NCBI RefSeq assembly: GCF_027625935.1
Contig: NZ_CP115300.1
Location: 2,666,001-2,730,000 of the forward strand
Source of the DNA: Streptomyces camelliae
Lineage (GTDB): Bacteria; Actinomycetota; Actinomycetes; Streptomycetales; Streptomycetaceae
DNA length: 64,000 nucleotides
Direction: 5' to 3'
Each line of letters starts with the position of its first letter. Position 1 is the first letter of the stretch. The position numbers and the translations under genes were made by a program. The notes below the pieces were generated by a model that made no database searches, had not been told where the DNA came from, and was given only the letters and a program-made list of their open reading frames with translations. Of the stretch, positions 24,780-57,654 are shown one piece after another.

Positions 24780-24801
24780 GCTGTCGAAGCGCTTCGACAG
24801 C
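24780..24801. promoter_or_regulatory. Operator O1, perfect 22-bp palindrome
   Basis: A 22-bp perfect palindrome centred on TCGAAGCGCTTCGA, 105 bases before the lacI start. It has the central CG and dyad shape of LacI/GalR-family operators and matches the sites before the transporter and GH3 genes. Confidence 0.8.
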
Positions 24802-24873
24802 GCCTATGGACACCCACTCCCGCTGAAGCTAGTGTCAATCTCACCCTCACTCGCCTCAGTCGGTCACGCGCTC

Positions 24874-24890
24874 TGTCGAAGCGCTTCACA
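24874..24890. promoter_or_regulatory. Operator O2, core palindrome before lacI
   Basis: TGTCGAAGCGCTTCACA, with the 10-bp core GAAGCGCTTC at 24878-24887, 17 bases before the lacI start codon. Its position suggests autoregulation. Confidence 0.75.
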
Positions 24891-24906
24891 AAGCTTGGAG
24901 AGCCGG

Positions 24907-25920
24907 ATGGTCACCCTCGCCGAGGTCGCCCAGCACGCCGGAGTGTCGGCGAGCACGGTGAGCTATGTCCTCAGCGGCAAGCGGTCCATCTCCGCGACCA
25001 CCCGGCAGCGGGTCGAGCAGAGCATCCGGGAGCTGGGGTACCACCCGAACGCCGGCGCCCGCGCCCTGGCGAGCAACCGGTCGAACATCATCGCGCTGAT
25101 GGTCCCGCTGCGCACCGACATGTACGTGCCGGTGATGATGGAGATCGCGATCGCGGTGGCGACCACGGCCCGGACGCACGGCTACGACGTCCTGCTGCTC
25201 ACCGGCGAGGAGGGCCCGGACGCGGTGCGCCGGGTGACCGGCAGCGGGCTCGCCGACGCCATGATCCTGATGGACGTGGAGCTGGAGGACGAGCGGCTGC
25301 CGCTGCTGCGGCAGACCGACCAGCACTCGGTCCTGATCGGGCTGCCCGCCGACCCGAACGGTCTGACCTGCGTGGACCTGGACTGGAGTGCGACGGGCGC
25401 GCTGTGCGTGGAGCATCTCGCGGGGCTCGGTCACCGTGACATCGCTGTCATCGGCGAGGCACCGGCCGTCTACGAACGGCACACCGGCTTCGCCGAGCGC
25501 ACCCTCGACGGGCTGCGCTCCTGGGCCCGTGCGTCAGGCGTCAGGGTGCTGCACCGGCCGTGCGAGGGCGGGTACGACGCGATGGCCCTCACCCTGGCCC
25601 GGATCTTCGACGAGCGCCCGGGGACGACCGGGTTCGTGGTGCAGAACGAGTCCGCGGTGGAGCCGCTGCTCGCGCTGCTGCGCCAGCAGGGCCGGGCCGT
25701 GCCCGAGGACGTGTCCGTGGTCGCGATCTGCCCGGACCAGGTCGCCGTCCAGGCCTCGGTGCGGCTGACCTCGGTGGCCATCCCCGCGCAGGAGATGGGC
25801 CGGCACGCCGTGGAGCATCTGGTGGCCAAGCTGGACGGGCGGGGCGACGACGACGTCGTGCTGCTCGCGCCCGAGCTGACCGTGCGGGCGAGTACGGGAC
25901 CGGCGCCGGCCGCGTCCTGA
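24907..25920 (+). CDS. LacI-family regulator of the xyloglucan locus
   Basis: 337 residues from ATG 24907. The helix-turn-helix at residues 3-25 (TLAEVAQHAGVSASTVSYVL with SGKRSIS) and hinge helix (GARALASNRSNIIALMVP) are typical; the periplasmic-binding-like effector domain fills the rest. LacI regulators usually repress and release operator DNA on binding a sugar. Two operators lie just upstream and two more stand before the ABC transporter and GH3 genes. GH31 follows 77 bases downstream and is probably cotranscribed. Effector unknown; a xyloglucan-derived sugar is my inference. Confidence 0.93.
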   Translation: MVTLAEVAQHAGVSASTVSYVLSGKRSISATTRQRVEQSIRELGYHPNAGARALASNRSNIIALMVPLRTDMYVPVMMEIAIAVATTARTHGYDVLLLTGEEGPDAVRRVTGSGLADAMILMDVELEDERLPLLRQTDQHSVLIGLPADPNGLTCVDLDWSATGALCVEHLAGLGHRDIAVIGEAPAVYERHTGFAERTLDGLRSWARASGVRVLHRPCEGGYDAMALTLARIFDERPGTTGFVVQNESAVEPLLALLRQQGRAVPEDVSVVAICPDQVAVQASVRLTSVAIPAQEMGRHAVEHLVAKLDGRGDDDVVLLAPELTVRASTGPAPAAS

Positions 25921-25997
25921 TCCGCACCGACCGTGCCCTTTCGGGGCACACACCTCTGCCTGCGTCCCTGTCTGCACGCCTCTCCTCAGGAGCCGCC

Positions 25998-28055
25998 GTG
26001 AATCAGCCTGCCGGTATTCAGCCTGCCCTCGCGCAGCCCAAGGTCAGCCTTGCCCAGTCCTCCCCCACCGTCGGCCGCGTCCAGGTGAAGGACGGGGCGC
26101 TGGAGTGGAGCGGCCGTCAGGAGACGGTGCGGATCGAGCCATGGGGTCCGGACGCGGTCCGGGTGCGGGCCCGGCTCGGCGGCCCGGTGCTGCAGGGTCT
26201 CCCGGGCGCGCTCCTCGATTCCCCGCCCGCCGCCGAGGCGACGGTCGACGCCGGTGACGGGGAAGGCCGGCTGACGGTCGGATCGCTGACCGTCGAGGTG
26301 AGCGCCGAGGGCATGCTCCGCTTCCTGCGCACCGACGACGGCAGCGAGCTGCTCGCCGAGGAGCGCGCCCACTTCTGGTGGCCCGGCCCGCGTCTCTACA
26401 CGGCGGTCGGCAACGGCTACCACCGGCTGGAGCAGCGTTTCGCCGCGTACGAGGACGAGAAGCTGTACGGCCTCGGCCAGCACCAGCACGGTCGGCTGGA
26501 CCAGAAGGGCCTGGTGCTGGACCTGGTGCAGCGCAACAGCGAGGTGAGCGTCCCGGTGCTGGTGTCCAGCCGGGGCTACACCCTGCTGTGGAACAACCCG
26601 GCGATCGGCCGGGTGGAGCTGGCGGGCAACGGCACCCGCTGGGTCGCGGACTCGGCCCGGCAGATCGACTACTGGATCACGGCGGGCACTCCGGGCGAGG
26701 GCCAGCGCAACTACAGCGCGGCCACCGGGCGTTCGCCGATGCTCCCGGAGTGGGCGGCGGGCTTCTGGCAGTGCAAGCTGCGCTACCGCACCCAGGACGA
26801 ACTCCTCGACGTGGCACGGGAGTACAAGCGCCGGGGCCTGCCGATCTCGGCGATCGTGTGCGACTTCTTCCACTGGACGCACCTGGGCGAGTGGAAGTTC
26901 GACCCGAAGGAGTGGCCCGACCCGGCGGGCATGGTCCGCGAGCTGGAGGACCTGGGCATCAAGCTGGTGGTGTCCGTGTGGCCGTCGGTGTCCCCGCTGT
27001 CGGAGAACCATCAACTGATGGAGCAGCGCGGCTACTTCGTCGGCACCCAGTACGGCCCGATGGCGCACGCCGACTGGCCGGACAAGGAGGTCGCCTCCAC
27101 CGTCCAGGTCGCCTTCTACGACCCCACGAACCCCGAGGCCCGCGACTTCGTGTGGTCGAGGATCCGGGAGAACTACCTCACCCCGTACGGCATCACGGCG
27201 TTCTGGCTGGACGCGTGCGAGCCCGAGCTGAAGCCCGGCTTCGCGGAGAACCTGCGCTACTGGGCGGGACCGGGCCTGGAGGTCGGCAACCTCTACCCGC
27301 TGGAGAACGCCCGCACCTTCCACGAGGGCCTGCTGGCGTCCGGGGAGCCGGAGGTGATCACCCTCAACCGCTCGGCGTGGGCGGGCAGTCAGCGGCACGG
27401 CGCGGCCCTGTGGTCCGGTGACATCGGCACCGACTTCGCGACCCTGCGCCGGCAGATCGCGGCCGGCCTCAACACCGCGCTGTCCGGCATCCCGTGGTGG
27501 AACACCGACATCGGCGGCTTCCACGGCGGCGACCCGGACGATCCGGCGTACCGCGAGGTGATGGTCCGCTGGTTCCAGTTCGGCGCGCTGTCCCCGCTGA
27601 TGCGGCTGCACGGCTTCCGCGACCCCGGTCTGCCGCTGGGCCCGGACATGACCGGCGGTCCGAACGAGGTGTGGTCGTACGGCGAGGAGGCCGGCGCGAT
27701 CCTGGAGCGGTACCTGCGGCTGCGCGAGCGCCTGAAGCCGTACATCCTCACCGTCATGCGCGAGGCGCACGAGGAGGGGCTGCCGGTGATGCGCCCGCTG
27801 TTCCTGGAGTTCCCGGACGACCAGGCGGCCTGGTCGGTGGACGACGCCTACCTCTTCGGCCGGGACCTGCTGGTCGCGCCGGTGCTGACCGCCGGCGCCA
27901 CGGCCCGCACGGCGTACCTCCCGGCGGGCGCGCGCTGGACGGACGCCTGGACGGGTGAGACGTACGAGGGCGGTACGGCGGTGACGGTGGACGCCCCCCT
28001 GGACCGGATCCCGCTGTTCCTGCGGGACGGGGCACGGCTGCCTGTAGGGGAGTAG
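25998..28055 (+). CDS. GH31 glycosidase, probable alpha-xylosidase
   Basis: 685 residues from GTG 25998 with CAGGAG upstream; no signal peptide, so cytoplasmic. Family 31 catalytic residues: nucleophile Asp405 in AFWLDACEPE and acid/base Asp475 in LWSGDIGTDF. KLYGLGQHQHGRLDQKG, GIPWWNTDIGGF and LSPLMRLHGF are family hallmarks. Family 31 covers alpha-glucosidases, alpha-xylosidases and others; the xyloglucan context (GH12, GH95, GH42, GH3) favours removal of alpha-1,6-xylose from xyloglucan oligosaccharides. Follows lacI on the same strand and ends in a strong terminator. Confidence 0.9.
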   Translation: MNQPAGIQPALAQPKVSLAQSSPTVGRVQVKDGALEWSGRQETVRIEPWGPDAVRVRARLGGPVLQGLPGALLDSPPAAEATVDAGDGEGRLTVGSLTVEVSAEGMLRFLRTDDGSELLAEERAHFWWPGPRLYTAVGNGYHRLEQRFAAYEDEKLYGLGQHQHGRLDQKGLVLDLVQRNSEVSVPVLVSSRGYTLLWNNPAIGRVELAGNGTRWVADSARQIDYWITAGTPGEGQRNYSAATGRSPMLPEWAAGFWQCKLRYRTQDELLDVAREYKRRGLPISAIVCDFFHWTHLGEWKFDPKEWPDPAGMVRELEDLGIKLVVSVWPSVSPLSENHQLMEQRGYFVGTQYGPMAHADWPDKEVASTVQVAFYDPTNPEARDFVWSRIRENYLTPYGITAFWLDACEPELKPGFAENLRYWAGPGLEVGNLYPLENARTFHEGLLASGEPEVITLNRSAWAGSQRHGAALWSGDIGTDFATLRRQIAAGLNTALSGIPWWNTDIGGFHGGDPDDPAYREVMVRWFQFGALSPLMRLHGFRDPGLPLGPDMTGGPNEVWSYGEEAGAILERYLRLRERLKPYILTVMREAHEEGLPVMRPLFLEFPDDQAAWSVDDAYLFGRDLLVAPVLTAGATARTAYLPAGARWTDAWTGETYEGGTAVTVDAPLDRIPLFLRDGARLPVGE

Positions 28056-28118: not shown

Positions 28119-28700
28119 TCAGTCGCGGCAGACGGAGACCAGGGAGCGGACCAGGGCGGCGGTGTGCAGCAGGTCCGGGTGCTTCTCGTGGTGGACCTCG
28201 ACGACGGCCACGGCGAGTTCGGGATCGCACGTCGGGGCGGCGCGCTCCGGGGTGGTGTCGGCGAGGCTCTGGACGAGGTCCGTGTTGATGCGGTTGATCG
28301 TCTGACGGACCACGTTCAGGTCGGGCTTGGTGGTCGGGGCCTGCTCCGGGTGGGCCGTCCACCGGGCGAACAGGGCGCGCTGGACGACCTTGTTGGCCTC
28401 GATCTGGTCGCGGAAGATGCGCCGGACCTCGTCGGGGTCGGCGCCGATCCGCTGGGCCTGGGCGGCGACGGAGTCGAGGACCTGCTGCTCGCGGGCCGGG
28501 TCGTCGATGGGGCTGTCGGTGCCCCACTTGGCGGCGGCGACCAGGTCGGCGGTGGCCAGACGGTCGGCGGCGAGGGAGGCGACCGGCCGCAACGGGGAGA
28601 GCGGTGCGGGGGCCGCGGAGGCGGGCGCGGCGGCGAGCAGGACGGCGACGCCGGCCGGCAGTACATACCTGAGGGGAGTGGCGATACGCATGCGCGCCAT
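28119..28700 (-). CDS. Secreted chorismate mutase (AroQ-gamma type)
   Basis: 193 residues if started at ATG 28700 (an ATG at 28691 is an alternative). Signal peptide PLRYVLPAGVAVLLAAAPAS, cleaved near ASA. The mature helical protein has the AroQ-gamma pattern: RLATADLVAAAKWG (Arg and Lys), PAREQQVL (Arg), IFRDQIEANKVVQRAL (with the family Gln-Ile-Glu-Ala). It would turn chorismate into prephenate outside the membrane, a role with no clear physiology in bacteria. Two Cys near the C-terminus (PTCDPE, VSVCRD) may form a disulphide. It lies inside the xyloglucan locus without evident connection. Confidence 0.85.
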   Translation of the reverse strand: MARMRIATPLRYVLPAGVAVLLAAAPASAAPAPLSPLRPVASLAADRLATADLVAAAKWGTDSPIDDPAREQQVLDSVAAQAQRIGADPDEVRRIFRDQIEANKVVQRALFARWTAHPEQAPTTKPDLNVVRQTINRINTDLVQSLADTTPERAAPTCDPELAVAVVEVHHEKHPDLLHTAALVRSLVSVCRD

Positions 28701-28725
28701 CCAACCGCAAGCAGGTGAACAACGG

Positions 28726-28761
28726 GAGGGCCGTCCCGGTCGCGCGCCCGGGACGGCCCTC
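28726..28761. terminator. Terminator after GH12
   Basis: GAGGGCCGTCCCGG at 28726-28739 pairs with 28748-28761, 8-base loop, 16 bases past the GH12 stop. It closes the GH42-GH95-GH12 operon. Confidence 0.8.
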
Positions 28762-28777
28762 GTCACCGCTGGGTCAC

Positions 28778-29491
28778 TCAACTGCTGCTGATGCTCTCGC
28801 TGTTGACGGCGAAGTTCAGCCCGCCGGAGGACGAGGTGATCTCGAAGCCGAACTGGAAGTCACCGATGGTCACATCGCCGAACCAGCCCTTGGTGTCCTT
28901 GATCCACTTCAGGATCGGCAGGACGTCGACCGTGCCGGAGCTGGAGTTGGAGCTGCGGACGAAGGAGAACACGTCGTTGGAGCCGTTGTTGCCCTTGTAG
29001 ACGGTCCAGGTGGAGCCGCCGAGGCTGACGGTGCCCTGGGAGGTGCCGAGCGGGCCGACGGCGCCGGTCTTGTTGACCCAGAGCATGATCTCGTACTTGT
29101 GGTTCGTGTCCCAGATGTCGTACGCCGTCTCGTAGGCGCCGGACGACGGGACGGTGACGTTGTAGCCGCTGGTGAGCGAGCCCAAGGAGCTGATCGACTT
29201 GTTGATCACCTTCTTGGCGTTGGGGTAGGACTTGATGCCGCCGGTGTTGGGGTGGTCGGCCCAGACACCCCAGTTGGTGCCGGAGTTGGCCCAGATGCAC
29301 TGGCTGCCGGCGCCGGAACCCCAGATGTCGTTGTACAGGGTGTAGCCGTTCAGCGTGGTGCTGCCCCACTGGTCGCAGGAGGACCAGACCGCGGCGGAGG
29401 CGGGGGCCGCGGCGAGGCCGACGGTGGCGCCGAGGGCCAGGGCAGGGGCGACGAGGGCCGTGGCGACTCTGCGGTACGTGCGTGTTGCCAT
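28778..29491 (-). CDS. Secreted GH12 endoglucanase / xyloglucanase
   Basis: 237 residues from ATG 29491 with GGAAGGGA upstream. A signal peptide (TALVAPALALGATVGL, cut after ASA) directs Sec export. The mature enzyme is a single GH12 jelly-roll: WSSCDQWGSTTLNGYTLYND, then nucleophile Glu134 in KYEIMLWV and acid/base Glu217 in FGFEITSS. Family 12 contains endo-beta-1,4-glucanases and xyloglucanases; no binding module is attached. It is the only secreted hydrolase of the locus and the last gene of the GH42-GH95-GH12 operon, 36 bases after GH95, which suggests it makes the xyloglucan oligosaccharides. Confidence 0.92.
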   Translation of the reverse strand: MATRTYRRVATALVAPALALGATVGLAAAPASAAVWSSCDQWGSTTLNGYTLYNDIWGSGAGSQCIWANSGTNWGVWADHPNTGGIKSYPNAKKVINKSISSLGSLTSGYNVTVPSSGAYETAYDIWDTNHKYEIMLWVNKTGAVGPLGTSQGTVSLGGSTWTVYKGNNGSNDVFSFVRSSNSSSGTVDVLPILKWIKDTKGWFGDVTIGDFQFGFEITSSSGGLNFAVNSESISSS

Positions 29492-29527: not shown

Positions 29528-31747
29528 TCACCGCGTCCCCAGGGTGAGGACGCGGTCTTCTCCGGCGACGAGGTCCAGCGGTTGTGCGCCGGAGGAAGTC
29601 CGCAGGTCGATGCGGTGGGTGCGGCTGGGCTTGACGACGGCTCGGGCTCCGTCCGGGGTCCAGCTCAGGTCGATCTCGGCGCCGAACCGGGTGCGTACGC
29701 CCCTCAGTTCACCGGTGGGGCAGGAATCCGGCACGGCGGGCAGCAGGACCAGCCGGTCGGGGGTGGACTGGACGAGCATCTCGATCAGGACGCCGGGCAG
29801 GGTGTGCGCGGCGTCCGCGTTGTAGACGTCCCGCCGCGGATAGTGGGCGCTCATCAGCGAGGCGTGGAAGAAGTCGCCGCCGAGCACTTGGCGCAGGGCG
29901 TGCGCGGCCCGTCCGGCGTCCCGCAGCCGGGCCGCGATCAGGGCGTGGTGCAGATGGCCGTGCGCCGAGTGGTTCTCCGCGCCGCGCAGTTCGAGGGCGC
30001 GGCGGGCGGCGGCGGCCAGGCCGGGGGTGTCGTAGGGGTTGATCTCGTCCAGCGGCCAGACGCCGTAGAGGTGGCTGAGGTGGCGGTGGTCGTACGTGTC
30101 GTCCAGACCGGGCCAGGCCCATTCGGCGAGCGCGCCGTCGGCGTTGATGCGGTGCGGTGGCAGCCGCTCCGCCAACTTCCGCCATTTCACACCCTGTTCG
30201 GGGTGGTAGTCGGCGGCGGTGAGCAGGGCGTGCCGGGCGGCGGAGAGATCCATGGCCGCGTTGAGCGCGCCCCAACTGGCGTTCGCGGGCCGGTTCTCGG
30301 GCGAGTAGGAGGGCACGACGACGAGATGGCCGTCCGCGTCGGTGCGGGTGAGGAAGTCCTCGTAGAAGGCGGCGGTCTCGGCGAGCGCGGCGGCCGTGCG
30401 CGGATCCCGCTCGCCGCGCATCTCGTCGTGGTCGACCAGCGGCTTGAGCAGCCAGTCGGCGCCGGCCGTCCACAGGTGCAGGGGGTATTCGCGGCTGAAG
30501 TGGTACGTCAGCCCGGACTCGCCGTCGGTGTGCGAGGGCGCGACCACGCCCCGGGCGCCGAAGATCGCGCGGGCGTTCTCCCGCCAGTGCGGCAGCTGCC
30601 CGGCGACGAAGCCGGCGAGCGCCTCGGTGACCTCGGGCAGGGCGGCGGCCGGTGCGGAGGCGGTCTGGAGGTTGAGGTTGGCGTTGGTGGTGAACGCCCC
30701 GGACCAGGCGGTGTTCCAGTCACCGGTCCACAGTCCGGTGAGCCGGGGTGGCAGCAGGCCGCTGCTGGAGAGCAGGTGGTAGCGGCCGGCGGCGAAGAGC
30801 CGTTCCAGCAGGGCGGGGCTGTCCGGGCGCGTGAGGAGCTCCGAGCCGGGCAGGGCACGGTCGGCGGGATCGGCGCCGAGGTCGAGGGTGACCCGCTGGT
30901 AGGCGGTGCGGTGCAGGGGCAGGTGCCGGGCGAGGAGGAGGTCGTACGGCGGCTGCGAGCTGCCCTCAGTGCCTTCGAGGAGCCTTCGGAGCAGCCGGGC
31001 CTCGGCGATCACGTCGGCCTCGCCGGTGTGCCGGAGGACGCGGGTGAGCAGCAGGACCGTGCGGGCGCCGGTGACCCGGACGCCGGGCGGAAGGAGTTCG
31101 GTGCGGCCGTCGAGGACGGCGACGAGGGTGACTCCGGTGTAGGCGCGGTCGCTGTCGGGGTAGCGGGCGCGCAGGCTCAGCAGGGCGCCCTCGGGGGTGA
31201 GCAGCGCGCCATGGCCGACCCGCAGCCCGGCCGGGGCGCCGGGCAGCCGGTGATCGAGCCGGATGTCGAGGTCGCCGTTGGCCGTGATCTCGTGCACGAT
31301 CACGTCGTCCGCGCGGGAGACGAAGACCCGGCTGTGGAAGTCGCCGGCGACGGCGGTGACCTCGCCGCTGCTGAAATCGACGTCCCGCCGGTAGCCACCC
31401 CCGCTCTCGCTCCCGCTCTCTCCGGACCGGCTGAGCCGTATCTGGAAGCCGGGGTGGAAGGGCTGCACCCACTGCAGCGGCCGCCCGTCGGTGAAGCCCT
31501 CGGCGGCGGTGCGGTCGCCGGCGAGCAACCGGTCCTGGAGCAGAGCGAGTTGGTCGGCGAGCCGGGGTGGCCGGGCGTGCTCGCCGCCGTTGGGCCGGAC
31601 CAGGGTGTGGTGATTGACGACGACCCGTTCCTCGTTCGGATCACCGCACACACAGACACCGTGGTGGCCGTTCCCGCTCAGGAAGCCGTCCTCCCAGCGA
31701 GCGGCCGGGGCGGGCTCCCAGGTCCCGTGGACGGGTCCATGGCTCAT
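29528..31747 (-). CDS. GH95 glycosidase, probable alpha-L-fucosidase
   Basis: 739 residues, no signal peptide. GH95 enzymes are inverting alpha-1,2-L-fucosidases or alpha-L-galactosidases. Signatures: LTGLWTGDWNTAWSGAFTTN with ANLNLQ (the two substrate-binding Asn), general acid Glu484 in PSYSPENRP, DHRHLSHLYGVWP, and NADAAHTLPGVLIEMLVQS, which holds the Asp that activates water. This last stretch is less canonical than in well-studied members. Start ATG overlaps the GH42 stop by ATGA. Together with GH42 it would remove the fucosyl-galactose side chains of xyloglucan. Confidence 0.88.
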   Translation of the reverse strand: MSHGPVHGTWEPAPAARWEDGFLSGNGHHGVCVCGDPNEERVVVNHHTLVRPNGGEHARPPRLADQLALLQDRLLAGDRTAAEGFTDGRPLQWVQPFHPGFQIRLSRSGESGSESGGGYRRDVDFSSGEVTAVAGDFHSRVFVSRADDVIVHEITANGDLDIRLDHRLPGAPAGLRVGHGALLTPEGALLSLRARYPDSDRAYTGVTLVAVLDGRTELLPPGVRVTGARTVLLLTRVLRHTGEADVIAEARLLRRLLEGTEGSSQPPYDLLLARHLPLHRTAYQRVTLDLGADPADRALPGSELLTRPDSPALLERLFAAGRYHLLSSSGLLPPRLTGLWTGDWNTAWSGAFTTNANLNLQTASAPAAALPEVTEALAGFVAGQLPHWRENARAIFGARGVVAPSHTDGESGLTYHFSREYPLHLWTAGADWLLKPLVDHDEMRGERDPRTAAALAETAAFYEDFLTRTDADGHLVVVPSYSPENRPANASWGALNAAMDLSAARHALLTAADYHPEQGVKWRKLAERLPPHRINADGALAEWAWPGLDDTYDHRHLSHLYGVWPLDEINPYDTPGLAAAARRALELRGAENHSAHGHLHHALIAARLRDAGRAAHALRQVLGGDFFHASLMSAHYPRRDVYNADAAHTLPGVLIEMLVQSTPDRLVLLPAVPDSCPTGELRGVRTRFGAEIDLSWTPDGARAVVKPSRTHRIDLRTSSGAQPLDLVAGEDRVLTLGTR

Positions 31748-33714
31748 GACCGCAGCACCGCCACTCCGTAGCGGCCGAGGGTGAGGGACCCGGTGACCTT
31801 CTCGCCGCCGAGCAGCTCACGGTGGTCGCCCGGCACCTCGACGGTGACCGGCTCCCGCCCGTGGTTGAGCAGGAACAGCAGCTCACCCCGGCGCACCGCC
31901 TCGACCCCGTCCGGCAGCCCCGCCAGCACCGGGCGCACCCCGGCCCCCTCGGCGACGGAGGCGAGCAGCTCGCGCAGCGCCTCCGGCTCGGGGAGCGTGG
32001 AGACGTACCAGGCGCGGCCGTTGTGCAGAACGGCGGGCAGCCCGTCCAGCTCGCCGCCCCGGTACGGCACGGTCCGGGCGACCCCGGGCTCGGCCTCGAT
32101 CTCCTCCGACCACAGCGTCCCGCGGAACCCCTCGCACTCGACGGTCTCCCCCGCCTCCAGGGGCCACCACTCGTGCAGGGTGCGGATGCCGAACAGCTCG
32201 CGCAGCCGGGCGTCCATGCCGCCGGGCCGGACCCGGTCGTCCTCGTCGGCGACGCCGGTGAGGAAGCCGCAGACCAGGGTGCCGCCGCCGTGGACGTAGC
32301 GGAGGAGGTTGTCGACGGCCGCGTCGGTGAGGAGGTAGAGCTGCGGGACGACGACGAGCCGGTAGCCGGACAGGTCGTGCTCCGGGTGGGCGAAGTCGGT
32401 GGCGAGATGGGCCTCCCACAGCGCCCGGTGCCAGGCGGTCAGCACCTCCGGCAGATCCACTTCCGCCGACAGCCGCCCCTCGTGGGCCCCGGCCCACCAG
32501 GAGTGCCAGTCGTGCAGGATCGCGACATCGGAGACGATCTGACTCCCCGTCACCGAACTGCCGATGCGTGCGAGTTCGTGTCCGAGCTGCCGGACCTCCT
32601 GATAGGTACGGCCGTGCTCCCCCGCGTGGCTGACCATTCCGGAGTGGAACTTCTCGGCGCCCTGGCGGGACTGGCGCCACTGGAAGTAGCAGACGGCGTC
32701 GGCGCCGCGGGCGACGGCCTGGAGGGACCAGAGCCGGTTGAGGCCGCGGGACTTGGGGTGGTTGACCCCGCGCCAGTTGACCGGCCCGGCCGCCTGCTCC
32801 ATGAGCATCCACGGCCCGCGGGCCTGTGAACGGGTGAGGTCCTGCACGAGCGCACCGCGCTGCCCGCCGAGCGGATCCCGCGGGTCGGGATAGAGGTCGA
32901 CGGAGACGACGTCCTCCTGCTCCGCCCAGCGCCAGGCGTCCTGGCCGATCCACAGGGGCATGAAGTTGCTGGTCACGGGGGTGTGCGGGGTGTGCCGGCG
33001 GACGATGTCCCGTTCGGCGGTGAAGCACTCCAGGAGCATGTCGGAGGTGAACCGCCGGAAGTCCAGCACCTGGGCGGGGTTCTTCAGATAGTGGGCGTGC
33101 CGGGGCGGGAGGATGCCGTCCCAGGTGTCGTAACCCTGGCTCCAGAAGGCGGTGCCCCAGGCGGAGTTGAGGGCGTCGAGGGTCCGGTACTTCTCCCGCA
33201 GCCAGCGGCGGAAGGCGGCGGCCGCCTCGTCGCCGTAGTCGAAGGTGCAGTACTCGTTGTTGATGTGCCACATCGTGAGGGCCGGGTGGGTGCCGTAGCG
33301 GGCGGCGAGATCCTCGGTGATGGCGGCGGCGTAACGGCGGTAGGTGGCGCTGGAGTGCGAGAAGTGCTGCCGGCCGCCCCACACCTCGGTCCGCCCGTCG
33401 GCGTCCCGGGGCAGGGTGTCTGGGTGGAGGCGGCCCATCCAGGGCGGCGGGGAGGCGGTCGGGGTGGCGAGCACGACCCCGATTCCGCCCTCGTGCATGA
33501 GGTCCATGAGCCGGTCGAGCCACCCGAACTCCCGTGCGCCGGGCTCGGGTTCGAGTTTCGACCAGGAGAAGACACCGAGGGTGACGGAGTTAACCCGGGC
33601 GTCCTTCATCAGCCGGACGTCGTCCTGCCAGGTCTCCTCGGGCCACTGCTCGGGGTTGTAGTCACCGCCGAAGAGGATGCGGCCCCGGCCGGCCGCGGCG
33701 AGGGTCGGTCTCAT
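31744..33714 (-). CDS. GH42 beta-galactosidase
   Basis: 656 residues from ATG 33714 (MRPTLAAAGRGRILFGGDYN). No signal peptide; cytoplasmic. Retaining family 42: acid/base Glu154 in WHINNEYC and nucleophile Glu306 in LMEQAAGP; the trimerisation domain and C-terminal beta domain are complete. It follows the family pattern YNPEQWPEETWQDDVRLMK. The ATG overlaps the stop of a GH74 remnant, and its own stop overlaps GH95. In other xyloglucan systems this step is done by GH2 or GH35 enzymes, so GH42 here is a variant. Confidence 0.95.
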   Translation of the reverse strand: MRPTLAAAGRGRILFGGDYNPEQWPEETWQDDVRLMKDARVNSVTLGVFSWSKLEPEPGAREFGWLDRLMDLMHEGGIGVVLATPTASPPPWMGRLHPDTLPRDADGRTEVWGGRQHFSHSSATYRRYAAAITEDLAARYGTHPALTMWHINNEYCTFDYGDEAAAAFRRWLREKYRTLDALNSAWGTAFWSQGYDTWDGILPPRHAHYLKNPAQVLDFRRFTSDMLLECFTAERDIVRRHTPHTPVTSNFMPLWIGQDAWRWAEQEDVVSVDLYPDPRDPLGGQRGALVQDLTRSQARGPWMLMEQAAGPVNWRGVNHPKSRGLNRLWSLQAVARGADAVCYFQWRQSRQGAEKFHSGMVSHAGEHGRTYQEVRQLGHELARIGSSVTGSQIVSDVAILHDWHSWWAGAHEGRLSAEVDLPEVLTAWHRALWEAHLATDFAHPEHDLSGYRLVVVPQLYLLTDAAVDNLLRYVHGGGTLVCGFLTGVADEDDRVRPGGMDARLRELFGIRTLHEWWPLEAGETVECEGFRGTLWSEEIEAEPGVARTVPYRGGELDGLPAVLHNGRAWYVSTLPEPEALRELLASVAEGAGVRPVLAGLPDGVEAVRRGELLFLLNHGREPVTVEVPGDHRELLGGEKVTGSLTLGRYGVAVLRS

Positions 33715-34097: not shown

Positions 34098-34295
34098 CCC
34101 GGGCCGTCCGGGGTGGCGCTCCGTCGCAGCCTCAAGGGCCTGACGGAAAGGGACGTTGAGGTCCTGCACCTGGTCGGTGACCTGCTCGGTTCCCTGGCCT
34201 GCCGCGACCTGAAGGCCCGCTGCGCAGCCGGGCTCGACCCCGCCTACACCAGCCGCTGGGGCGCCCAGCACGGGCAGCAGTCCTTGACCACATAG
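34098..34295 (+). pseudogene. Transposase fragment (IS605 OrfB-like)
   Basis: A frame of about 66 codons (LTERDVEVLHLVGDLLGSLA, then CRDLKARCAAGLDPAYTSRWG) resembles the N-terminal part of Streptomyces IS605-OrfB-type transposases, where a similar LGRLAGRDLAxRC and SSRWAGAIT occur. It has no start and ends abruptly. Weak match. Confidence 0.35.
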
Positions 34296-34827: not shown

Positions 34828-35772
34828 TCACCCCTTCACCGCCCCCGTCAGCATTCCCTTCTTGAAATGCTTCTGGACGAACGGGGACAGGACCGCGACC
34901 GGTAGCAGGGCCATCACCATGACCGCCATCTGCACGGCCAGGCCGGACAGTTCGCCGGTCTTGATGGCCTGGCCCAGGCCCACCGGGGCCTGTTGCTTCT
35001 GGACCAGTTGGATCATGACGTTCTGGAGCGGCATCTTGTCCTGTTCGTTGAGGTACAGGGACGCGTTGAACCACGCGCTCCAGTAGCCCACGGCGTAGAA
35101 CAGCGTGATGACCGCCAGCACCGCCCGCGACAGCGGCATCACGATCTGCCAGAGGATCCGGAAGTCCCCGGCGCCGTCGATCCGCGCGCTGTCGATCAGT
35201 TCCTGCGAGATGCCCATGAAGAACCCACGCAGGACGAGGATGTTGAAGACGCTCACCGCGCTCGGCAGGATCAGGGCCAGGTAGCTGTCCATCAGGCCCA
35301 GGGACTGCACCAGCAGATACGTGGGGATCAGGCCCGCGCTGAAGAACATCGTCGCCAGCAGCAGCATCAGGAACCAGCGGTGGCCGAGCGAGCCGATGCG
35401 GGAGAGGCCGTACGCGCACAGGACCGACACCGTCATCGAGAACAGCGTGCCGACCAGCGTGACCAGGATGCTGATGACCGCGGCCCGGGTGACCTGCCCG
35501 CCGCTCAGCAGCTCCTTGTACGCGATGAACGTGATGCCCTTGGGGACCATCACCAGACCGCCCGCCTGGTCGATCGTCTTCCGGGAGGACAGGCTGGTGA
35601 CGATCACGATCCACAGCGGGAAGAGGATGCCGAGGCAGGCCAGGGTGAGCACCAGGCCCTTGCCGGCCAGACCGGCCTTGCTCGGCTCCTCCTCCCACAC
35701 CGGGCGGGGCGGCGCGGCCCACCGGGACGGCGGTCGTTCCCGTACCGGCGGCTTGTCGATGACGGCGGTCAT
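34828..35772 (-). CDS. Sugar ABC transporter permease (YtcP/MalG type)
   Basis: 314 residues from ATG 35772 (MTAVIDKPPVRERPPSRWAA). Six transmembrane helices (for instance GLVLTLACLGILFPLWIVIV and AVMVMALLPVAVLSPF). The EAA loop that contacts the ATPase reads LIDSARIDGAGDFRILWQIV. Belongs to carbohydrate uptake family CUT1, YtcP branch. Its start overlaps the other permease's stop. No ATPase gene is nearby; in Streptomyces such importers use the shared ATPase MsiK, encoded elsewhere. Confidence 0.93.
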   Translation of the reverse strand: MTAVIDKPPVRERPPSRWAAPPRPVWEEEPSKAGLAGKGLVLTLACLGILFPLWIVIVTSLSSRKTIDQAGGLVMVPKGITFIAYKELLSGGQVTRAAVISILVTLVGTLFSMTVSVLCAYGLSRIGSLGHRWFLMLLLATMFFSAGLIPTYLLVQSLGLMDSYLALILPSAVSVFNILVLRGFFMGISQELIDSARIDGAGDFRILWQIVMPLSRAVLAVITLFYAVGYWSAWFNASLYLNEQDKMPLQNVMIQLVQKQQAPVGLGQAIKTGELSGLAVQMAVMVMALLPVAVLSPFVQKHFKKGMLTGAVKG

Positions 35773-36815
35773 TTCTTGTACACCCCCTGCTCGCCCATGA
35801 GATGGGCCACCTTGTTCGCGGCGAGGACCAGCCCGAGGCTGACCACGCCCTTGATCAGACCGGCGGCGGCCGCGTAGCCGAAGTCCTGGTTGCGCACGCC
35901 GTTCCACCAGGTGAAGGTGTCGAGGACCTCCGCCGCGCCCGGTCCTACGGCGTCACGCTGGAGCAGGATCTGTTCGAACCCGACGGTCAGCGCGTCACCC
36001 ACCCGCAGGACCAGCAACAACGCGATCACCGGCCGCAGTGCGGGGAGCGTGACGTGCCACATGCGGCGCCAGCGGCCGGCGCCGTCCATCGCGGCGGCCT
36101 CGTACAGATCGGGACTCACCGAGGCCAGCGCGGCGAGGAAGATGATGATCCCCCAGCCCGCGTCCTTCCAGATCCCCTCCGCCGTGACGAGGAACTTGAA
36201 GGTGGACGGGTTGGTCATGATGTCCAGCCCGTTGTAGCCGTGCCGGCGCAGGAGCTGCGACAGGACGCCCGCGCCGCCGAAGAGCTGCTGGAAGACGGCG
36301 ATGACCAGCACCCACGAGAAGAAGTGCGGCAGGTACAGCACCGCTTGCGCGACCGCCCGCACCCTCGGCCTGATCACGCTGTTGATGAGCAGCGCGAGCA
36401 GGATCGGCACCGGGAAGAACAGCACGAGCTGCAGGAAGAACAGCACCAGCGTGTTCTGGACCGCGTGCCAGAAGGCCGAGTCCGCGAAGAGCTGCTGGAA
36501 GTTGTCCAGGGCGACCCAGGGGCTGTGCAGCATCGAGACGATGCCGTTGTCGCTGACGTAGGGGTCGTAGTCCTCGAAGGCGACGATGTTGCCGAGGATC
36601 GGCAGGTAGTTGAAGAGCAGGATCAGCAGGATCGCCGGCAGCGTCATCAGCAGCAGGACGCGGTCGCGTCTGAAGCGCAGGCGCAGGCTGAGCTTCCCGG
36701 TCCTCGCCTTCTTCCGGTTCTTGCCGGTCGCGGTGGTGTCGTCCGACGCCGCCGCGGCCTTCCCCGCCCTGTCGTCCGCCCCGGCCCTGCTCCGAGGCAC
36801 CGTGCTGTGGGACAC
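35769..36815 (-). CDS. Sugar ABC transporter permease (LplB/UgpA type)
   Basis: 348 residues. A cytoplasmic N-terminus rich in Lys/Arg leads to six helices beginning VLLLMTLPAILLILLFNYLP. The EAA loop is LYEAAAMDGAGRWRRMWHVT. LplB-branch permease, usual partner of the YtcP branch. It lies between the binding-protein gene (28 bases upstream) and the second permease. With them it should import oligosaccharides from GH12 action. Confidence 0.93.
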   Translation of the reverse strand: MSHSTVPRSRAGADDRAGKAAAASDDTTATGKNRKKARTGKLSLRLRFRRDRVLLLMTLPAILLILLFNYLPILGNIVAFEDYDPYVSDNGIVSMLHSPWVALDNFQQLFADSAFWHAVQNTLVLFFLQLVLFFPVPILLALLINSVIRPRVRAVAQAVLYLPHFFSWVLVIAVFQQLFGGAGVLSQLLRRHGYNGLDIMTNPSTFKFLVTAEGIWKDAGWGIIIFLAALASVSPDLYEAAAMDGAGRWRRMWHVTLPALRPVIALLLVLRVGDALTVGFEQILLQRDAVGPGAAEVLDTFTWWNGVRNQDFGYAAAAGLIKGVVSLGLVLAANKVAHLMGEQGVYKK

Positions 36816-36842: not shown

Positions 36843-38552
36843 TCAGCCGGCCGCCGTGCCGTTCTCGTCGAGGAGCTTCTTGTACCAGTCGCGCAGCTTG
36901 TCGCCGCCCCTGCTCTTCCAGTCGGAGACGGCCTGCTGCATGTCGCTGATCTTCTTTCGGCCGCGGGTGATGTCGTCCTCAAGCGTTTCGAAGTTGTCGC
37001 CGAGGTTGGTGTAGCGGGACGGCTCGGTGATCATCTGGCCGTAGAAGCTGGACTTCTTGGTGAAGGCACCCATCCGCTGCTGCCACTCGACCTGGGCCTT
37101 GGCGACGTCGGGGAAGTCGGGGTGGGCGATGGTGGGGGCGGGGCTCGCGACCATGACGTAGGCGTTCATGACCTCGTTGTTGCCCTGGGTGGTCTTGACT
37201 GGTACGCCGTTCTTGACCGTGTAGTCCGCGCCCTGGACACCGTAGTTGGTGGCCATGTACTCCTTGGTGCCGTACGGTGCGGCGGTGACGTTGGCGACGG
37301 CCAGCGCGTCACGGATCACGGACTGCGAGGCCTTCTTGTTGATGAAGGCGAAGATACCGGCGGGCTGTTCGGCCCACAGTCGCGGATCGCCGCCGTCGTG
37401 GCCGAAGATGTCCATGCCCCAGATCTTGAACTGCGGGTTCTGGACGGCCTGTTCAGCAGTGCGGCCCCACCACTGGGAGATGTTGTTGGGGTAGATCAGG
37501 AACTCGCCGGCCGCGAACTTGGGGCCCGGGTCGGGGGCGCTCTTGCCCATCATCGCGTCGGGGTGGACGTATCCGGCAGCGAAGAGCTTGCGGGCCCACT
37601 CCAGCGCTTCGAGGTACTCCTGGGTCTCGATGCGGTTGATCAGCTTGCCGTCGACGAGGTTCCAGCCGAGCGCCTTCTCGCTGCCGGAGAGCACGCCGAA
37701 CATCTGGAAGGCGGTCCACTTCATGTCCAGGCAGGCCCAGCGCTTGGCCTTGGCGTTGGTGATCTCCTTGGCGAGGGACATGAACTCGTCCGCGGAGCGC
37801 GGGACCTGGTAGCCCTCCTTGTCGAAGATGTCCTTGCGGTAGAGGGGCACCATGCTGGTGACGTACGAGGAGGGCATCGGCAGGCCGCGCAGCTTGCCGC
37901 CGATGATGCAACGCTGCCAGGCGTCGGTCGGGATGGCCGCGAGGTTCGGGTAGTCCTTGACAGCTTCGCCGGAGAGGTAGGGGCCGAGGTCGGCGAACTT
38001 GCTGATGATGGCGGTGGGTATCTTGCCGCCCATGTTCCAGCTGGGGACGACCACGACGTCGGGTACGTCGCTGGAGGCGAGGACCGCGCCGAGCTTCTGG
38101 TCGTAGGTGTTGCCGTCCTGGTTCTGCCAGACGACGTCGACGCCGATCATGTCGTTCATCGTCTTGTAGTAGTCGTTGTCGCTCTTGGGCGGGGAGCCCC
38201 AGAACGGCGACATGATGGTGACCTTGCCGCCCTTGCCGAGCTTCTTGGGGACGGAGGTCTTCAGGGTCGCCAGGTCGAGCTTGCCGGTGAAGCCGATCGG
38301 CGAGCCGTTCTTGGACGGGATGTCCGGCACCACCACGTTGCTCGCCACGTAGGACGGCAGCAGCTTCTTCTCGCCCTTGCCTCCGGAGGAACCGCCGCCC
38401 GTGCCGCTGTCCGAGCTGCCGCAGGCGGTGAGCAACGGCATGCCTCCGGCGACCGCCGCGGCGGCGACCGCGGTGGAGGCGAGGAAGCTCCTCCGGCTGG
38501 GCGAGTCTCTCCGGCTGGGCGCGGAGGAGGCGGAAGCGGCGTTCGGCGTCAT
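36843..38552 (-). CDS. Sugar ABC transporter substrate-binding lipoprotein
   Basis: 569 residues, large as in LplA-type binding proteins. N-terminus has a twin-arginine motif SRRSFLAST, hydrophobic stretch, and lipobox LLTACGSS, so a Tat-exported, lipid-anchored protein is expected; a Gly/Ser linker follows. The mature part is a two-domain family-1 solute-binding protein (KVTIMSPFWGSPP; EFLIYPNNISQWW). It is the first gene of the transporter operon; a GAAGCGCTTC operator lies 124 bases upstream. Size and context suggest binding of large branched oligosaccharides. Confidence 0.92.
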   Translation of the reverse strand: MTPNAASASSAPSRRDSPSRRSFLASTAVAAAAVAGGMPLLTACGSSDSGTGGGSSGGKGEKKLLPSYVASNVVVPDIPSKNGSPIGFTGKLDLATLKTSVPKKLGKGGKVTIMSPFWGSPPKSDNDYYKTMNDMIGVDVVWQNQDGNTYDQKLGAVLASSDVPDVVVVPSWNMGGKIPTAIISKFADLGPYLSGEAVKDYPNLAAIPTDAWQRCIIGGKLRGLPMPSSYVTSMVPLYRKDIFDKEGYQVPRSADEFMSLAKEITNAKAKRWACLDMKWTAFQMFGVLSGSEKALGWNLVDGKLINRIETQEYLEALEWARKLFAAGYVHPDAMMGKSAPDPGPKFAAGEFLIYPNNISQWWGRTAEQAVQNPQFKIWGMDIFGHDGGDPRLWAEQPAGIFAFINKKASQSVIRDALAVANVTAAPYGTKEYMATNYGVQGADYTVKNGVPVKTTQGNNEVMNAYVMVASPAPTIAHPDFPDVAKAQVEWQQRMGAFTKKSSFYGQMITEPSRYTNLGDNFETLEDDITRGRKKISDMQQAVSDWKSRGGDKLRDWYKKLLDENGTAAG

Positions 38553-38675: not shown

Positions 38676-38689
38676 TCGAAGCGCTTCGA
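38676..38689. promoter_or_regulatory. Operator O3 before the ABC transporter
   Basis: Perfect 14-bp palindrome TCGAAGCGCTTCGA, same as the centre of O1 before lacI. Confidence 0.8.
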
Positions 38690-38867: not shown

Positions 38868-38881
38868 TCGAAGCGCTTCGA
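38868..38881. promoter_or_regulatory. Operator O4 before GH3
   Basis: Perfect 14-bp palindrome TCGAAGCGCTTCGA, 38 bases before the GH3 start and downstream of TTGACA. Its place over the expected -10 fits repression. Confidence 0.8.
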
Positions 38882-38918
38882 AAGCGTCTCGTCGCTCCAT
38901 CCGCAAGGGGAACCGCTC

Positions 38919-41753
38919 GTGACCGTTGACTCGCCGTCCGCCCTGCCGTTCCGCGATCCGCATCTGCCGTTCGCGAAGCGCATCGACGATCTGCTGGCGC
39001 GGCTCACCCTGGACGAGAAGATCTCCTTCCTGCACCAGTTCACGCCGGCCGTCGAGCGCCTGGGCATCGCCGCCTTCCGCACCGGCCAGGAGGCCCTGCA
39101 CGGGGTGGCCTGGATGGGCCCGGCGACGGTGTTCCCGCAGGCCGTGGGCCTGGGCGCGACCTGGAACCCGGAGCTGGTGCGGCGGGTCGGCGAGGCGGTG
39201 TCCAAGGAGGTCCGCGCGATGCGGGCCCGGGACGAGCGGGTCGGGCTCAACGTCTGGTCGCCGACGGTCAATCTGCTGCGCCATCCGCTGTGGGGCCGTA
39301 ACGAGGAGGGGTACGCGGAGGACCCGAAGCTGACCTCGGCGATCGCCACGGCGTACACCCACGGCCTGCGCGGCGACCATCCGCTGTACTGGCGCACCGC
39401 GCCCGTCCTGAAGCACTGGCTGGCCCACAACAACGAGACGGACCGCGCCACGTCGTCCGCCTCCGTCCGCCCGCGCGTGCTGCACGAGTACGATCTGCGC
39501 GCCTTCCGGGAGACGGTCGAGGCGGGCGCGGTGGCCGGGGTGATGCCGGCGTACAACCTGGTCAACGGCCGCCCCAACCACGTCTCCCCGTATCTGCGCG
39601 ACCCGTTGCGGACCTGGACCGGGGAGGAGCTGCTGGTCTGCTCGGACGCGGGCGCACCCTCCAATCTGGTCGACGCCGAGCACTACTTCGACACCCACGA
39701 GGAGGCCACCGCGGCCGCGCTGCTGGCGGGCGTGGACAGCTTCACCGACCACGGCACGGACGGTTCGCAGATCGTCGAGCGGGTGCGGAAGGCGTACGAG
39801 CAGGGCCTGTTGAGCGAGGCGGACATCGACACCGCCGTACGCCGGCAGCTCTCCGTCCGGTTCCGGCTCGCCGAGTTCGACCCGCACTACGACCCGCACG
39901 TCTGCACCGGCGAGTTCGACACCCCGGGGCACCGGGCACTCGCCCGGGAGGCCGCCGAGCAGGCGGTCGTGCTGCTGAAGAACGACGACGACCTGCTGCC
40001 GCTCGCGCCCGACACCCGGATCGCGGTGGTCGGCCTGCTCGCCGACGAGTGCAAGCTCGACTGGTACAGCGGCAGTCTGCTGCACCGGTCCACCCCTCTG
40101 GAGGGCCTGTACGAGCGGTTCGGCGCCGAGCGCGTGGAGTTCGCGGAGGGCGTGGACCGGGTCCGGCTGCGCACCGCCGCCGGCGCGTTCCTGCAGGTGC
40201 CGCCGACGGACGCGCCGGACGAGGCACGCGGCGCCGAGGGCGCACTGGACCCGGCGCTGCTGGCCGGCCGCACCGATCTGCCGCCGCTCACCGCGGAGGT
40301 GACCGGCACCGAGTTCGCGCTGGTGGACTGGGGCGAGGGCGTGCTGACCCTGCGGGCGCCGGACGGCCGGTATCTGTCGGTCGCCGAGGACGGGTATGTC
40401 CGCGCCTCGGCCGACCAGCCGGGCGGGTGGGTGGTCCAGGAGACCTTCCGTCTCGAACCGCACCACAACGGTCACCTCCTCAGGCATCTGGGCACGGGTC
40501 GCCATGTCCGTGTCGCCGCCGACGGCGTGCAGGTTGCCGACTCCGGTGACGTCTTCGAGGTGATCACGGTCGAGCGGGGCGAGGAGGCCGTGGCCCGGGT
40601 CGCGGAGGCGGCGGAGGTCGTCCTGGTGGTCGCGGGCAACGACCCGCACATCAACGGCCGCGAGACCGAGGACCGTACAACCCTCGCCCTGCCGGAGCAC
40701 CAGCAGCGGCTGCTGCGTGCGGCCCGCGCCGCGAACCCGCGTACGGTACTGATCCTGACCTCGGCCTATCCGTACGCGGTGGACGTGGCGCGGCTCCCGG
40801 CCGCGCTGTGGACCGCGCACGGCGGACAGGCGGCGGGCACGGCACTGGCCCGGGTCCTGGCCGGCGACGTCTCCCCGGCGGGCCGGCTGCCGCAGACCTG
40901 GTACGCCTCGGACGCCGATCTGCCCGACCTGTTCGACTACGACGTGATCGGCGGCCGCCAGACCTATCTGTACTTCGAGGGCACCCCGCTGTTCCCCTTC
41001 GGGCACGGCCTGTCGTACGCGTCGTTCGGCTACGGCGACCTCGTGGCCGGTGTCGCGGACGGCGCGCTCACGGTCTCCTGCTCGGTGACGAACACGGGGG
41101 ACCGGGTGGCGGACGAGGTGGTCCAGCTCTACGGGCGGGCCGTGGACCCGTCGGTGACCCGCCCGCGCCGCGAGCTGCTGGCGCACCGCCGGCTCACCCT
41201 CACGCCCGGCGAGCGGGCCGAGGTGTCCTTCGGCGTCCCGCTGTCCGCGCTGGAGTTCTGGGACGTGGCGCACGATGGACCGCGCCTGGAGACGGGGCCG
41301 TACGAGCTGCTGGTCGGCGCGTCCAGCGAGGACGTGCGGCTGCGTACGACGGTCCACCTCGACGGCACCGGGCCCGCGCCCCGTCCGGTGGCCCGGCGGG
41401 GCCTCGCGGGCGTGGACTTCGACGAGCAGTCGGGCGTCGCGATCGTGGACCGGACGCGGACGGCGGGCGACGCGGTGACTCCCGCCGACGGCGGTACGGC
41501 CGAACTGCTCTACCGCGCCTGCGACTTCGGTCCGGGCGTGACCGAGGTGAGCGCGCAGCTGGCGGGCGAGGGCGTACTCGAACTCTCCCTGGACGGCGGC
41601 CCGGTGCTCGCGGCTCTGCACCTGGACAGCCCCACCGCCGGCCCCTACGCCTACACCACCCTGGGCGCCGGCCTCGTCGCCGAGGGCGTGCACGACGTCC
41701 GCATCGGACTGCGCGGCCCGCTGCGGCTCGCGCACGTCGGCTTCTCCGGTTGA
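38919..41753 (+). CDS. GH3 glycosidase, probable beta-glucosidase
   Basis: 944 residues from GTG 38919 with AAGGGGA upstream; no signal peptide. N-terminal (alpha/beta) domain with KHWLAHNNETDR and nucleophile Asp243 in LLVCSDAGAP; C-terminal sandwich with LLKNDDDLLPLAP; fibronectin-III-like domain near residues 700-800. Residues about 410-545 interrupt the C-terminal domain with a fascin/beta-trefoil-like insertion (LRAPDGRYLSVAEDGYV), and the last 90 residues look like a CBM6-like jelly roll. Inserted binding domains suggest a preference for polymer-like or branched substrates. Preceded by O4. In the xyloglucan scheme it removes glucose (possibly xylose) from the trimmed backbone. Confidence 0.9.
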   Translation: MTVDSPSALPFRDPHLPFAKRIDDLLARLTLDEKISFLHQFTPAVERLGIAAFRTGQEALHGVAWMGPATVFPQAVGLGATWNPELVRRVGEAVSKEVRAMRARDERVGLNVWSPTVNLLRHPLWGRNEEGYAEDPKLTSAIATAYTHGLRGDHPLYWRTAPVLKHWLAHNNETDRATSSASVRPRVLHEYDLRAFRETVEAGAVAGVMPAYNLVNGRPNHVSPYLRDPLRTWTGEELLVCSDAGAPSNLVDAEHYFDTHEEATAAALLAGVDSFTDHGTDGSQIVERVRKAYEQGLLSEADIDTAVRRQLSVRFRLAEFDPHYDPHVCTGEFDTPGHRALAREAAEQAVVLLKNDDDLLPLAPDTRIAVVGLLADECKLDWYSGSLLHRSTPLEGLYERFGAERVEFAEGVDRVRLRTAAGAFLQVPPTDAPDEARGAEGALDPALLAGRTDLPPLTAEVTGTEFALVDWGEGVLTLRAPDGRYLSVAEDGYVRASADQPGGWVVQETFRLEPHHNGHLLRHLGTGRHVRVAADGVQVADSGDVFEVITVERGEEAVARVAEAAEVVLVVAGNDPHINGRETEDRTTLALPEHQQRLLRAARAANPRTVLILTSAYPYAVDVARLPAALWTAHGGQAAGTALARVLAGDVSPAGRLPQTWYASDADLPDLFDYDVIGGRQTYLYFEGTPLFPFGHGLSYASFGYGDLVAGVADGALTVSCSVTNTGDRVADEVVQLYGRAVDPSVTRPRRELLAHRRLTLTPGERAEVSFGVPLSALEFWDVAHDGPRLETGPYELLVGASSEDVRLRTTVHLDGTGPAPRPVARRGLAGVDFDEQSGVAIVDRTRTAGDAVTPADGGTAELLYRACDFGPGVTEVSAQLAGEGVLELSLDGGPVLAALHLDSPTAGPYAYTTLGAGLVAEGVHDVRIGLRGPLRLAHVGFSG

Positions 41754-41775
41754 GGGTCCGGAGGAGACGACGACA

Positions 41776-41819
41776 AGAAGGGGTCCGGCACCGGAAGGCA
41801 GCGGTGCCGGACCCCTTCT
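41776..41819. terminator. Terminator after GH3
   Basis: An 18-bp stem with the core AAGGGGTCCGGCACCG, complementary to 41802-41817, around an 8-base loop, 22 bases past the GH3 stop. It ends in TTCT. Confidence 0.85.

Positions 41820-56498: not shown

Positions 56499-57654
<1,156 letters not shown>

Follow-up and report, generated by a model that had tools for sequence, protein, structure and literature searches.

A stretch of 64,000 nucleotides of the Streptomyces camelliae genome (RefSeq assembly GCF_027625935.1, contig NZ_CP115300.1, positions 2,666,001 to 2,730,000; G000:C1:2666001-2730000 in our numbering), hereafter called the window, was analysed in this study. The genome comprises 9.6 Mb in three contigs, and the mean GC content of the window is about 71%. 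Between window positions 24784 and 41753 lie genes for a LacI-family regulator, glycoside hydrolases (GHs) of families GH31, GH12, GH95, GH42 and GH3, two ATP-binding cassette (ABC) permeases and a solute-binding protein (SBP), together with a relic of a GH74 gene. Judged from the predicted gene functions, this locus very probably serves the use of xyloglucan under a LacI-type switch, the backbone being cut outside the cell and the oligosaccharides imported and dismantled inside. New here is the palindrome TCGAAGCGCTTCGA, which stands at the promoters of the locus and tracks the LacI orthologue. For comparison, 199 Streptomyces genomes and 296 genomes of other genera were sampled.

Gene content and arrangement of the locus

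The LacI-family regulator (337 amino acids; 24907-25920, + strand), with the Pfam domains LacI HTH (2.9e-18) and Peripla_BP_3, is followed on the same strand by GH31, a predicted MeXyl31-like alpha-xylosidase of 685 amino acids (25998-28055; Pfam catalytic domain, E 7.7e-81; catalytic positions D405 and D475). On the - strand are found the SBP (569 amino acids; 36843-38552; Pfam SBP_bac_8, 45.6 bits), permease A (PermA; 35769-36815) and permease B (PermB; 34828-35772), both with Pfam BPD_transp_1, the GH74 relic consisting of the final 50 codons and the stop (33711-33863), the GH42 beta-galactosidase (656 amino acids; 31744-33714; Pfam, 1.9e-149), a divergent GH95 that is a predicted cytoplasmic alpha-1,2-L-fucosidase (29528-31747; Pfam catalytic domain, 7.5e-63) and a xyloglucanase-like GH12 endo-glucanase (28778-29491; Pfam, 2.6e-22; catalytic E134 and E217). 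A block with two putative pieces of an insertion sequence (IS) of IS200/IS605 (TnpB) type occupies the place of GH74 (33866-34826). The outermost gene, on the + strand, encodes a GH3 of 944 amino acids, a predicted xyloglucan-oligosaccharide beta-glucosidase (38919-41753; Pfam GH3 N and C (4.1e-48) and Fn3-like). Every frame from LacI to GH3 is open with one terminal stop, the coding ends having been refined through start sites. Four-base overlaps occur between PermA and PermB, GH42 and GH95, and the GH74 relic and GH42, as in a translationally coupled operon.

All genes named in a preliminary description of this DNA were found at their places by Pfam scan and open frames; that inventory had missed the palindromes, a chorismate-mutase gene, the signal-like start of the SBP and the fact that GH74 is intact in most compared relatives. 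The inventory also named GH12 as the sole protein with a signal peptide, which is true of the locus enzymes: signal peptides, judged by eye throughout, were seen in GH12 and not in GH31, GH95, GH42 or GH3. The start of the SBP is by eye of twin-arginine translocation (Tat)/lipoprotein type (Pfam TAT_signal, 17.8 bits, below the cut-off of 22.7).

The SBP and permease genes are adjacent and the locus is without an ATPase gene; an ABC ATPase gene elsewhere in the window (56498-57658) is accompanied by its own SBP and permease genes. A frame of 379 amino acids (C1:5024588-5024983) is, by its domain make-up, a candidate for MsiK, an ATPase that many Streptomyces ABC importers share. Such sharing has been described for the genus (PMC4890002). 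No SusC/SusD-like domain was found among the 20 window proteins scanned with Pfam, and the importer is of ABC type; the locus is in this unlike a Bacteroidetes polysaccharide utilisation locus with its outer-membrane pair.

A conserved locus and its palindrome in Streptomyces

GH95 matches at E 1e-100 or better were detected in 80 of the 199 genus genomes, and in 76 of these the best match exceeded 50% identity. Twenty of the loci were fetched, and in 18 of them GH3, SBP, both permeases and GH95 stand in the order of the window, with the strands recurring as well; of the other two, one is degraded (L055) and one (L063, with a GH95 relative of 48% identity) lies in another setting. Because order and strand recur, the grouping is not due to chance. 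Outside the genus, only 11 of the 296 genomes had a GH95 match at E 1e-100, and in the four of these 11 that were fetched no other gene of the locus was found around GH95. The best 80 of 454 GH95 relatives are all titled Streptomyces; the 80-locus survey used below rests on these and hence on the closest relatives, and as its loci were found through GH95, a loss of GH95 itself would be invisible in it. GH74 lies between PermB and GH42 at full length in 14 of the 20 fetched loci, in part in one, and not at all in five; among the 75 classifiable loci of the 80 (five could not be classified), 58 have an intact GH74, 4 a relic and 13 none, a GH74 being counted as intact when a single tblastn match extended over 90% of the query. 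These comparisons suggest a locus, most likely for xyloglucan use, that is common to many Streptomyces (GH95 orthologue in 76/199). In a number of loci that are otherwise present, such as L113, L114, L137 and L184, no GH31 was detected in the space from GH12 to LacI.

The palindrome TCGAAGCGCTTCGA is perfect and has five exact copies in the genome, three of them at promoters of the locus: 5' of LacI (24784-24797), upstream of the SBP operon (38676-38689) and 37 bp ahead of the GH3 start codon (38868-38881). When up to two mismatches were allowed, the pattern search gave five matches in the window, namely these three, an imperfect operator-like site 17 bp ahead of the LacI start codon (24876-24889, two mismatches) and a site with two mismatches inside GH3, against 0.33 expected and at most 4 in a shuffle. 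With L055 and L063 excluded, 18 of the 20 fetched loci were compared with that of the window, and the gap between SBP and GH3 contained two exact copies in every one of these 19. Of the two remaining genomic copies, one (C1:272893) lies between GH3 and SBP of a second locus with GH74 and GH12; the other (C1:5619888; L076) stands 40 bp ahead of a gene for a sugar-binding protein, part of another ABC importer that is possibly an unlinked member of the regulon.

A LacI orthologue was identified in 112 of the 199 genus genomes, a count that excludes 6 of 118 genomes with a best match of 59% identity or less (G061 was judged from its E-value). At least one exact TCGAAGCGCTTCGA was present in 111 of the 112 genomes with the orthologue vs 11 of the 87 without it, and at least two in 102/112 vs 2/87; when all 118 genomes with a LacI match are counted, the site occurs in 117/118 vs 5/81 of the others. 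The reversed pattern, used as a control, was found 0 or 1 times per genome (once in 29/199). At least two sites were likewise present in 79 of the 80 genomes with a GH95 match vs 25 of the 119 without, and in 76/76 after the four genomes with a best GH95 match of 50% identity or less were dropped. Because non-coding palindromes are exactly conserved over such distances, TCGAAGCGCTTCGA is probably the LacI operator. Two points temper this reading: the co-occurrences with LacI and GH95 are raw counts, uncorrected for ancestry, site and gene being partly inherited together, and a genome search tolerating one mismatch gave 8 sites vs 2 for the reversed control, so that one-mismatch sites by themselves are weak. 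Two such sites lie between SBP and GH3 of a third locus of the genome (C1:58000-76000; L077), where an ABC importer and a LacI paralogue (62% identity) are accompanied by a GH3 and a melibiase-type gene; they are weak in view of the two sites that the reversed control gave in the genome. The LacI protein reaches no NCBIfam cut-off, and an open-access literature search for the palindrome core CGAAGCGCTTCG found no paper.

Enzyme subfamilies and the predicted substrate

The best solved relative of GH31 is MeXyl31 (5zn6, 682 bits), followed by a Xanthomonas alpha-xylosidase (365 bits), and the Asp residues of its FWLD and WSGD motifs, which we take to be the catalytic pair, align with those of MeXyl31. 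GH12 is closest to NopAA (6sdu, 171 bits), and its E134 and E217 correspond to the catalytic Glu pair E117/E216 of that enzyme, which has high activity, on xyloglucan exclusively (PMC7303141). The best solved relatives of GH42 are beta-galactosidases (top 9ta3, 547 bits) and those of GH3 are GH3 enzymes (top 8va7, 266 bits). For cutting the backbone, the candidates are the GH12 of the locus and three GH74 genes encoded elsewhere in the genome, their secretion and activity being putative. GH31, GH42 and GH3 are clustered and by eye free of signal peptides, a trait of import-first loci of the Ruminiclostridium cellulolyticum type. Taken together, the enzyme subfamilies, the intact GH74 in the operon of most relatives and the lack of signal peptides by eye in GH31, GH95, GH42 and GH3 make xyloglucan as the target, with import before the removal of side chains, a well supported prediction, as the preliminary description had proposed.

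Several results weigh against a firm assignment. GH31 scores 245 bits against the NCBIfam alpha-xylosidase model, under its cut-off of 606; GH12 belongs to NF004860 (391 bits, over the cut-off of 319), a family with the name "hypothetical protein"; GH3 stays under every NCBIfam cut-off, the best being xylan beta-xylosidase Xyl3A (437, cut-off 1250), and the NCBIfam scan gave no name to GH95, GH42 or the SBP. The solved isoprimeverose-producing GH3 scores 171 bits to the locus GH3, below the others, and the SBP has weak matches to solved structures (best E 1.9e-4). Nor need genes mean growth: tamarind xyloglucan supported the growth of four of six Streptomyces isolates, and the non-grower Mut2 has 11 enzymes of xyloglucan families (PMC11475409). 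In a study of the tomato rhizosphere, xyloglucanase and alpha-xylosidase were among the Cellvibrio and Streptomyces variants, the passages concerned describing no such locus (PMC9203511). The C-terminal domain of GH3 was also found to hold an insert with a weak fascin match (Pfam Fascin, 18.7 bits, below the cut-off of 23.1).

The step assigned to GH95 calls for more caution. Its Pfam catalytic domain is clear (213 bits, cut-off 27), and among solved structures a profile of 11 relatives matched best with XacAfc95 (7kmq), which is the fucosidase in the xyloglucan locus of Xanthomonas (PMC8245568). With residue roles from the same paper, T353, N355, N357 and D645 of the window protein align with T395, N397, N399 and D690 of XacAfc95 (by our own count, chain numbers in the alignment run 4 lower than the published numbering). 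Against a typical fucosidase, the segment with the acid Asp is VYNADAAHTLP, near-constant in the relatives, instead of the usual FQIDGNFG, and the place of N355 is Asp in 22 and Asn in 12 of 34 rows, the window being among the latter (33 distinct proteins from 49 loci plus the window). The enzyme is likely a fucosidase and, as read from the alignment, belongs to a divergent subgroup. It is conceivable, and in our estimate rather unlikely, that the locus serves xyloglucan while the target of GH95 is alpha-L-galactose or a different alpha-linked sugar of the side chains instead of alpha-1,2-fucose. The altered acid motif and the N/D variation at one base position would fit such a role, as would the known alpha-L-galactosidase within GH95 (4ufc; PMC8245568) and the relatives outside any such locus, namely those in the four fetched genomes of other genera (43-44% identity) and that of L063; the aligned base and acid positions, the kinship with a xyloglucan fucosidase and the Thr at the T395 place, which also occurs in a proven fucosidase (PMC8245568), speak for fucose. 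Two other GH95 genes are present in the window genome, one weak comparison giving 29% identity.

A different glycan altogether (e.g. arabinogalactan, galacto-oligosaccharides or mixed beta-glucan), with GH12 and GH74 incidental, appears improbable. It is true that GH42, GH3 and importers of this kind serve, as a matter of general knowledge, many substrates, and that a melibiase-type (GH36-like) gene is found instead in the third locus, which also has a LacI paralogue and sites with one mismatch; against this stand the GH74 in the operon of most compared relatives, the MeXyl31 type of GH31 and the NopAA type of GH12.

The assignment to xyloglucan also agrees with systems described elsewhere. 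In R. cellulolyticum, cytoplasmic breakdown by GH42, GH31 and GH3 after ABC import was demonstrated by experiment; its cluster Ccel_2451-Ccel_2458 resembles the window locus in that GH31, GH3 and GH42 lack signal sequences, in that an SBP and two permeases have no ATP-binding gene nearby, and in import followed by cytoplasmic breakdown, which is proposed here (PMC4780118). Unlike that cluster, which contains a two-component system and relies on cellulosomal enzymes to cut the polymer, the window locus has LacI and a palindrome, and its operon has GH12, joined in most relatives by GH74 (PMC4780118). The same paper draws similar clusters of Gram-positive bacteria that are more distant, some of them with alpha-fucosidase genes according to a figure legend; its text does not mention Streptomyces, though its cluster figure may include an example from that genus (PMC4780118). 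A preprint on Anaerocellum bescii describes an ABC importer without a local ATPase and a GH31 in Athe_2052-2057, with GH42 proposed for galactose and GH74 acting outside the cell, all as in the window; unlike in the window, GH42 (Athe_1927) and GH74 (Athe_1860) are encoded elsewhere, and the putative fucosidase Athe_2072 is not adjacent (PMC12710961). The xyloglucan utilisation locus of Xanthomonas likewise unites GH74, GH31 and GH95, its GH31 and GH95 being among the nearest solved relatives of those of the window; it differs by TonB-dependent transporters, GH35 and a CE20 esterase, and the passages describing it mention no ABC importer, GH42 or GH12 (PMC8245568). The CebR/cebEFG-bglC system of Streptomyces likewise combines a regulator and its 14-bp perfect palindrome with an SBP, two permeases and MsiK in trans (here proposed); both its substrate, cellobiose/cellotriose, and its palindrome, TGGGAGCGCTCCCA, are unlike those of the window (PMC4890002). 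GH42 and the missing ATPase, by which the locus had been set apart from known ones, were rejected as marks of novelty, as the R. cellulolyticum cluster has both, A. bescii is similar and MsiK is shared in Streptomyces (PMC4780118, PMC12710961, PMC4890002). Among the matches listed in an open-access literature search, no paper describing the locus or its regulator was found, which is no proof of absence.

Loss of GH74 and the proposed pathway

The GH74 relic that had been noticed earlier was confirmed: 50 residues (33714-33863, - strand) are 82% identical to the C-terminus of the open GH74 of L044 (tblastn, E 2e-23), values by which chance similarity was rejected. A Pfam scan of the relic frame found no family. 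In the nearest relative, Streptomyces sp. CoH27 (L105; GH95 95% identical, among the best 80 of 454), the GH74 frame is open over 784 codons from stop to stop; the flanks match at 94-96% identity, and the window has 965 bp where L105 has 2203 bp. Two pieces of the intervening block have matches at two further sites of the genome, where the matching places are separated by about 1.1 kb, and five of ten listed plasmid records (15 matched) are annotated as transposase or TnpB-related at the matching place. Judged by these matches, the block in the place of GH74 is an IS200/IS605 (TnpB-type) element whose middle is gone. About 100 bases beside this remnant (window ~34672-34773) match 25 other short places of the genome.

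Such losses recur among relatives. On a tree of GH95 and GH42, made by a quick search without bootstrap and counting changes, not their direction, 18 of 76 rows lack GH74, which requires 14 changes, at least 11 of them by well-supported branches; a number of changes as low as this arose in 33 of 500 trials with shuffled labels, and the losses are therefore hardly clustered on the tree. Relics in 5 of the 18 rows, one of them (L135) 48% identical to the query, show loss more directly than the tree. No internal stops were seen in the GH74 matches of the 16 intact loci searched. From these comparisons we infer that the in-locus GH74 was lost recently in the window strain and repeatedly among its relatives, the importer and the cytoplasmic enzymes being kept. 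Another near-full-length GH74 exists in 14 of 17 best-of-454 genomes that lost it from the locus; in L106, L107 and L154, whose loci keep GH12, no other GH74 was found at E 1e-60 (genome completeness not stated). A second GH74 is also present in 14 of 16 intact-locus genomes searched. Elsewhere in the window genome, three long open frames match GH74, and since the in-locus copy is lost, these and GH12 would have to cut the backbone. The earlier description of the locus as complete is to be qualified by this loss.

A second locus of the same genome, of xyloglucan type (C1:272000-290000; L065), contains GH3, SBP, permeases, GH74, GH12, a shortened GH42, an acetyl-xylan-esterase-like (AXE1-like) gene, GH1 and GH31. 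Its SBP shifts frame, its PermA is without an internal stretch, its PermB, lacking a stop, reads through into the frame of GH74 and its GH42 is cut short, breaks that may reflect an assembly error; its GH74 and GH12 are open. The import of the window strain thus seems to rest on the window locus and its GH74 on other places. That the window locus is itself decaying and out of use after the loss of GH74, as the relic and the IS remnant might suggest, is very improbable, because the remaining genes are open and the palindromes exact, SBP, permeases, GH42, GH95, GH12, GH31 and LacI are full length and 95-100% identical to the nearest relative, GH3 is 97% identical over the 57% held by its fetched stretch, and the broken importer belongs to the second locus.

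Two neighbouring features may be mentioned. Between GH12 and GH31 sits a gene for a small chorismate-mutase type II protein (28119-28781, - strand; Pfam CM_2) with a signal-like stretch by eye; it is present in 12 of the 80 best-of-454 loci, once as a fragment, and is probably a passenger. A tRNA-Leu (aag) called by ARAGORN at 42087-42179 lies inside a protease gene on the opposite strand and is probably a false call.

For the use of xyloglucan by the window strain, we propose the following route. The secreted GH12 of the locus and GH74 encoded elsewhere would cut the beta-1,4-glucan backbone into oligosaccharides, which the lipoprotein SBP and the two permeases would import, powered by a shared MsiK-type ATPase encoded elsewhere. 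In the cytoplasm, GH95 would take fucose first and GH42 then galactose, after which GH31 (xylose) and GH3 (glucose) may alternate from the non-reducing end. LacI would bind TCGAAGCGCTTCGA and repress three promoters, its own with GH31 downstream, that of the SBP operon and that of GH3, and would be released on binding an oligosaccharide that the cell has taken up, or a product of it.

In a wider and speculative view, which we hold to be less likely than not, the putative LacI/TCGAAGCGCTTCGA regulon would be one that loses GH74 repeatedly and retains import and breakdown in the cytoplasm, and some strains might thereby partly scavenge oligosaccharides freed by others; the two loci of the window strain may have decayed in a complementary manner, GH74 being lost here and the importer broken there, with GH74 and GH12 kept. 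Streptomyces are soil decomposers, and the palindrome points to a candidate regulon that can be tested directly. The repeated loss of a secreted enzyme from an otherwise steady locus would provide a natural experiment on the uncoupling of secreted digestion from private uptake.

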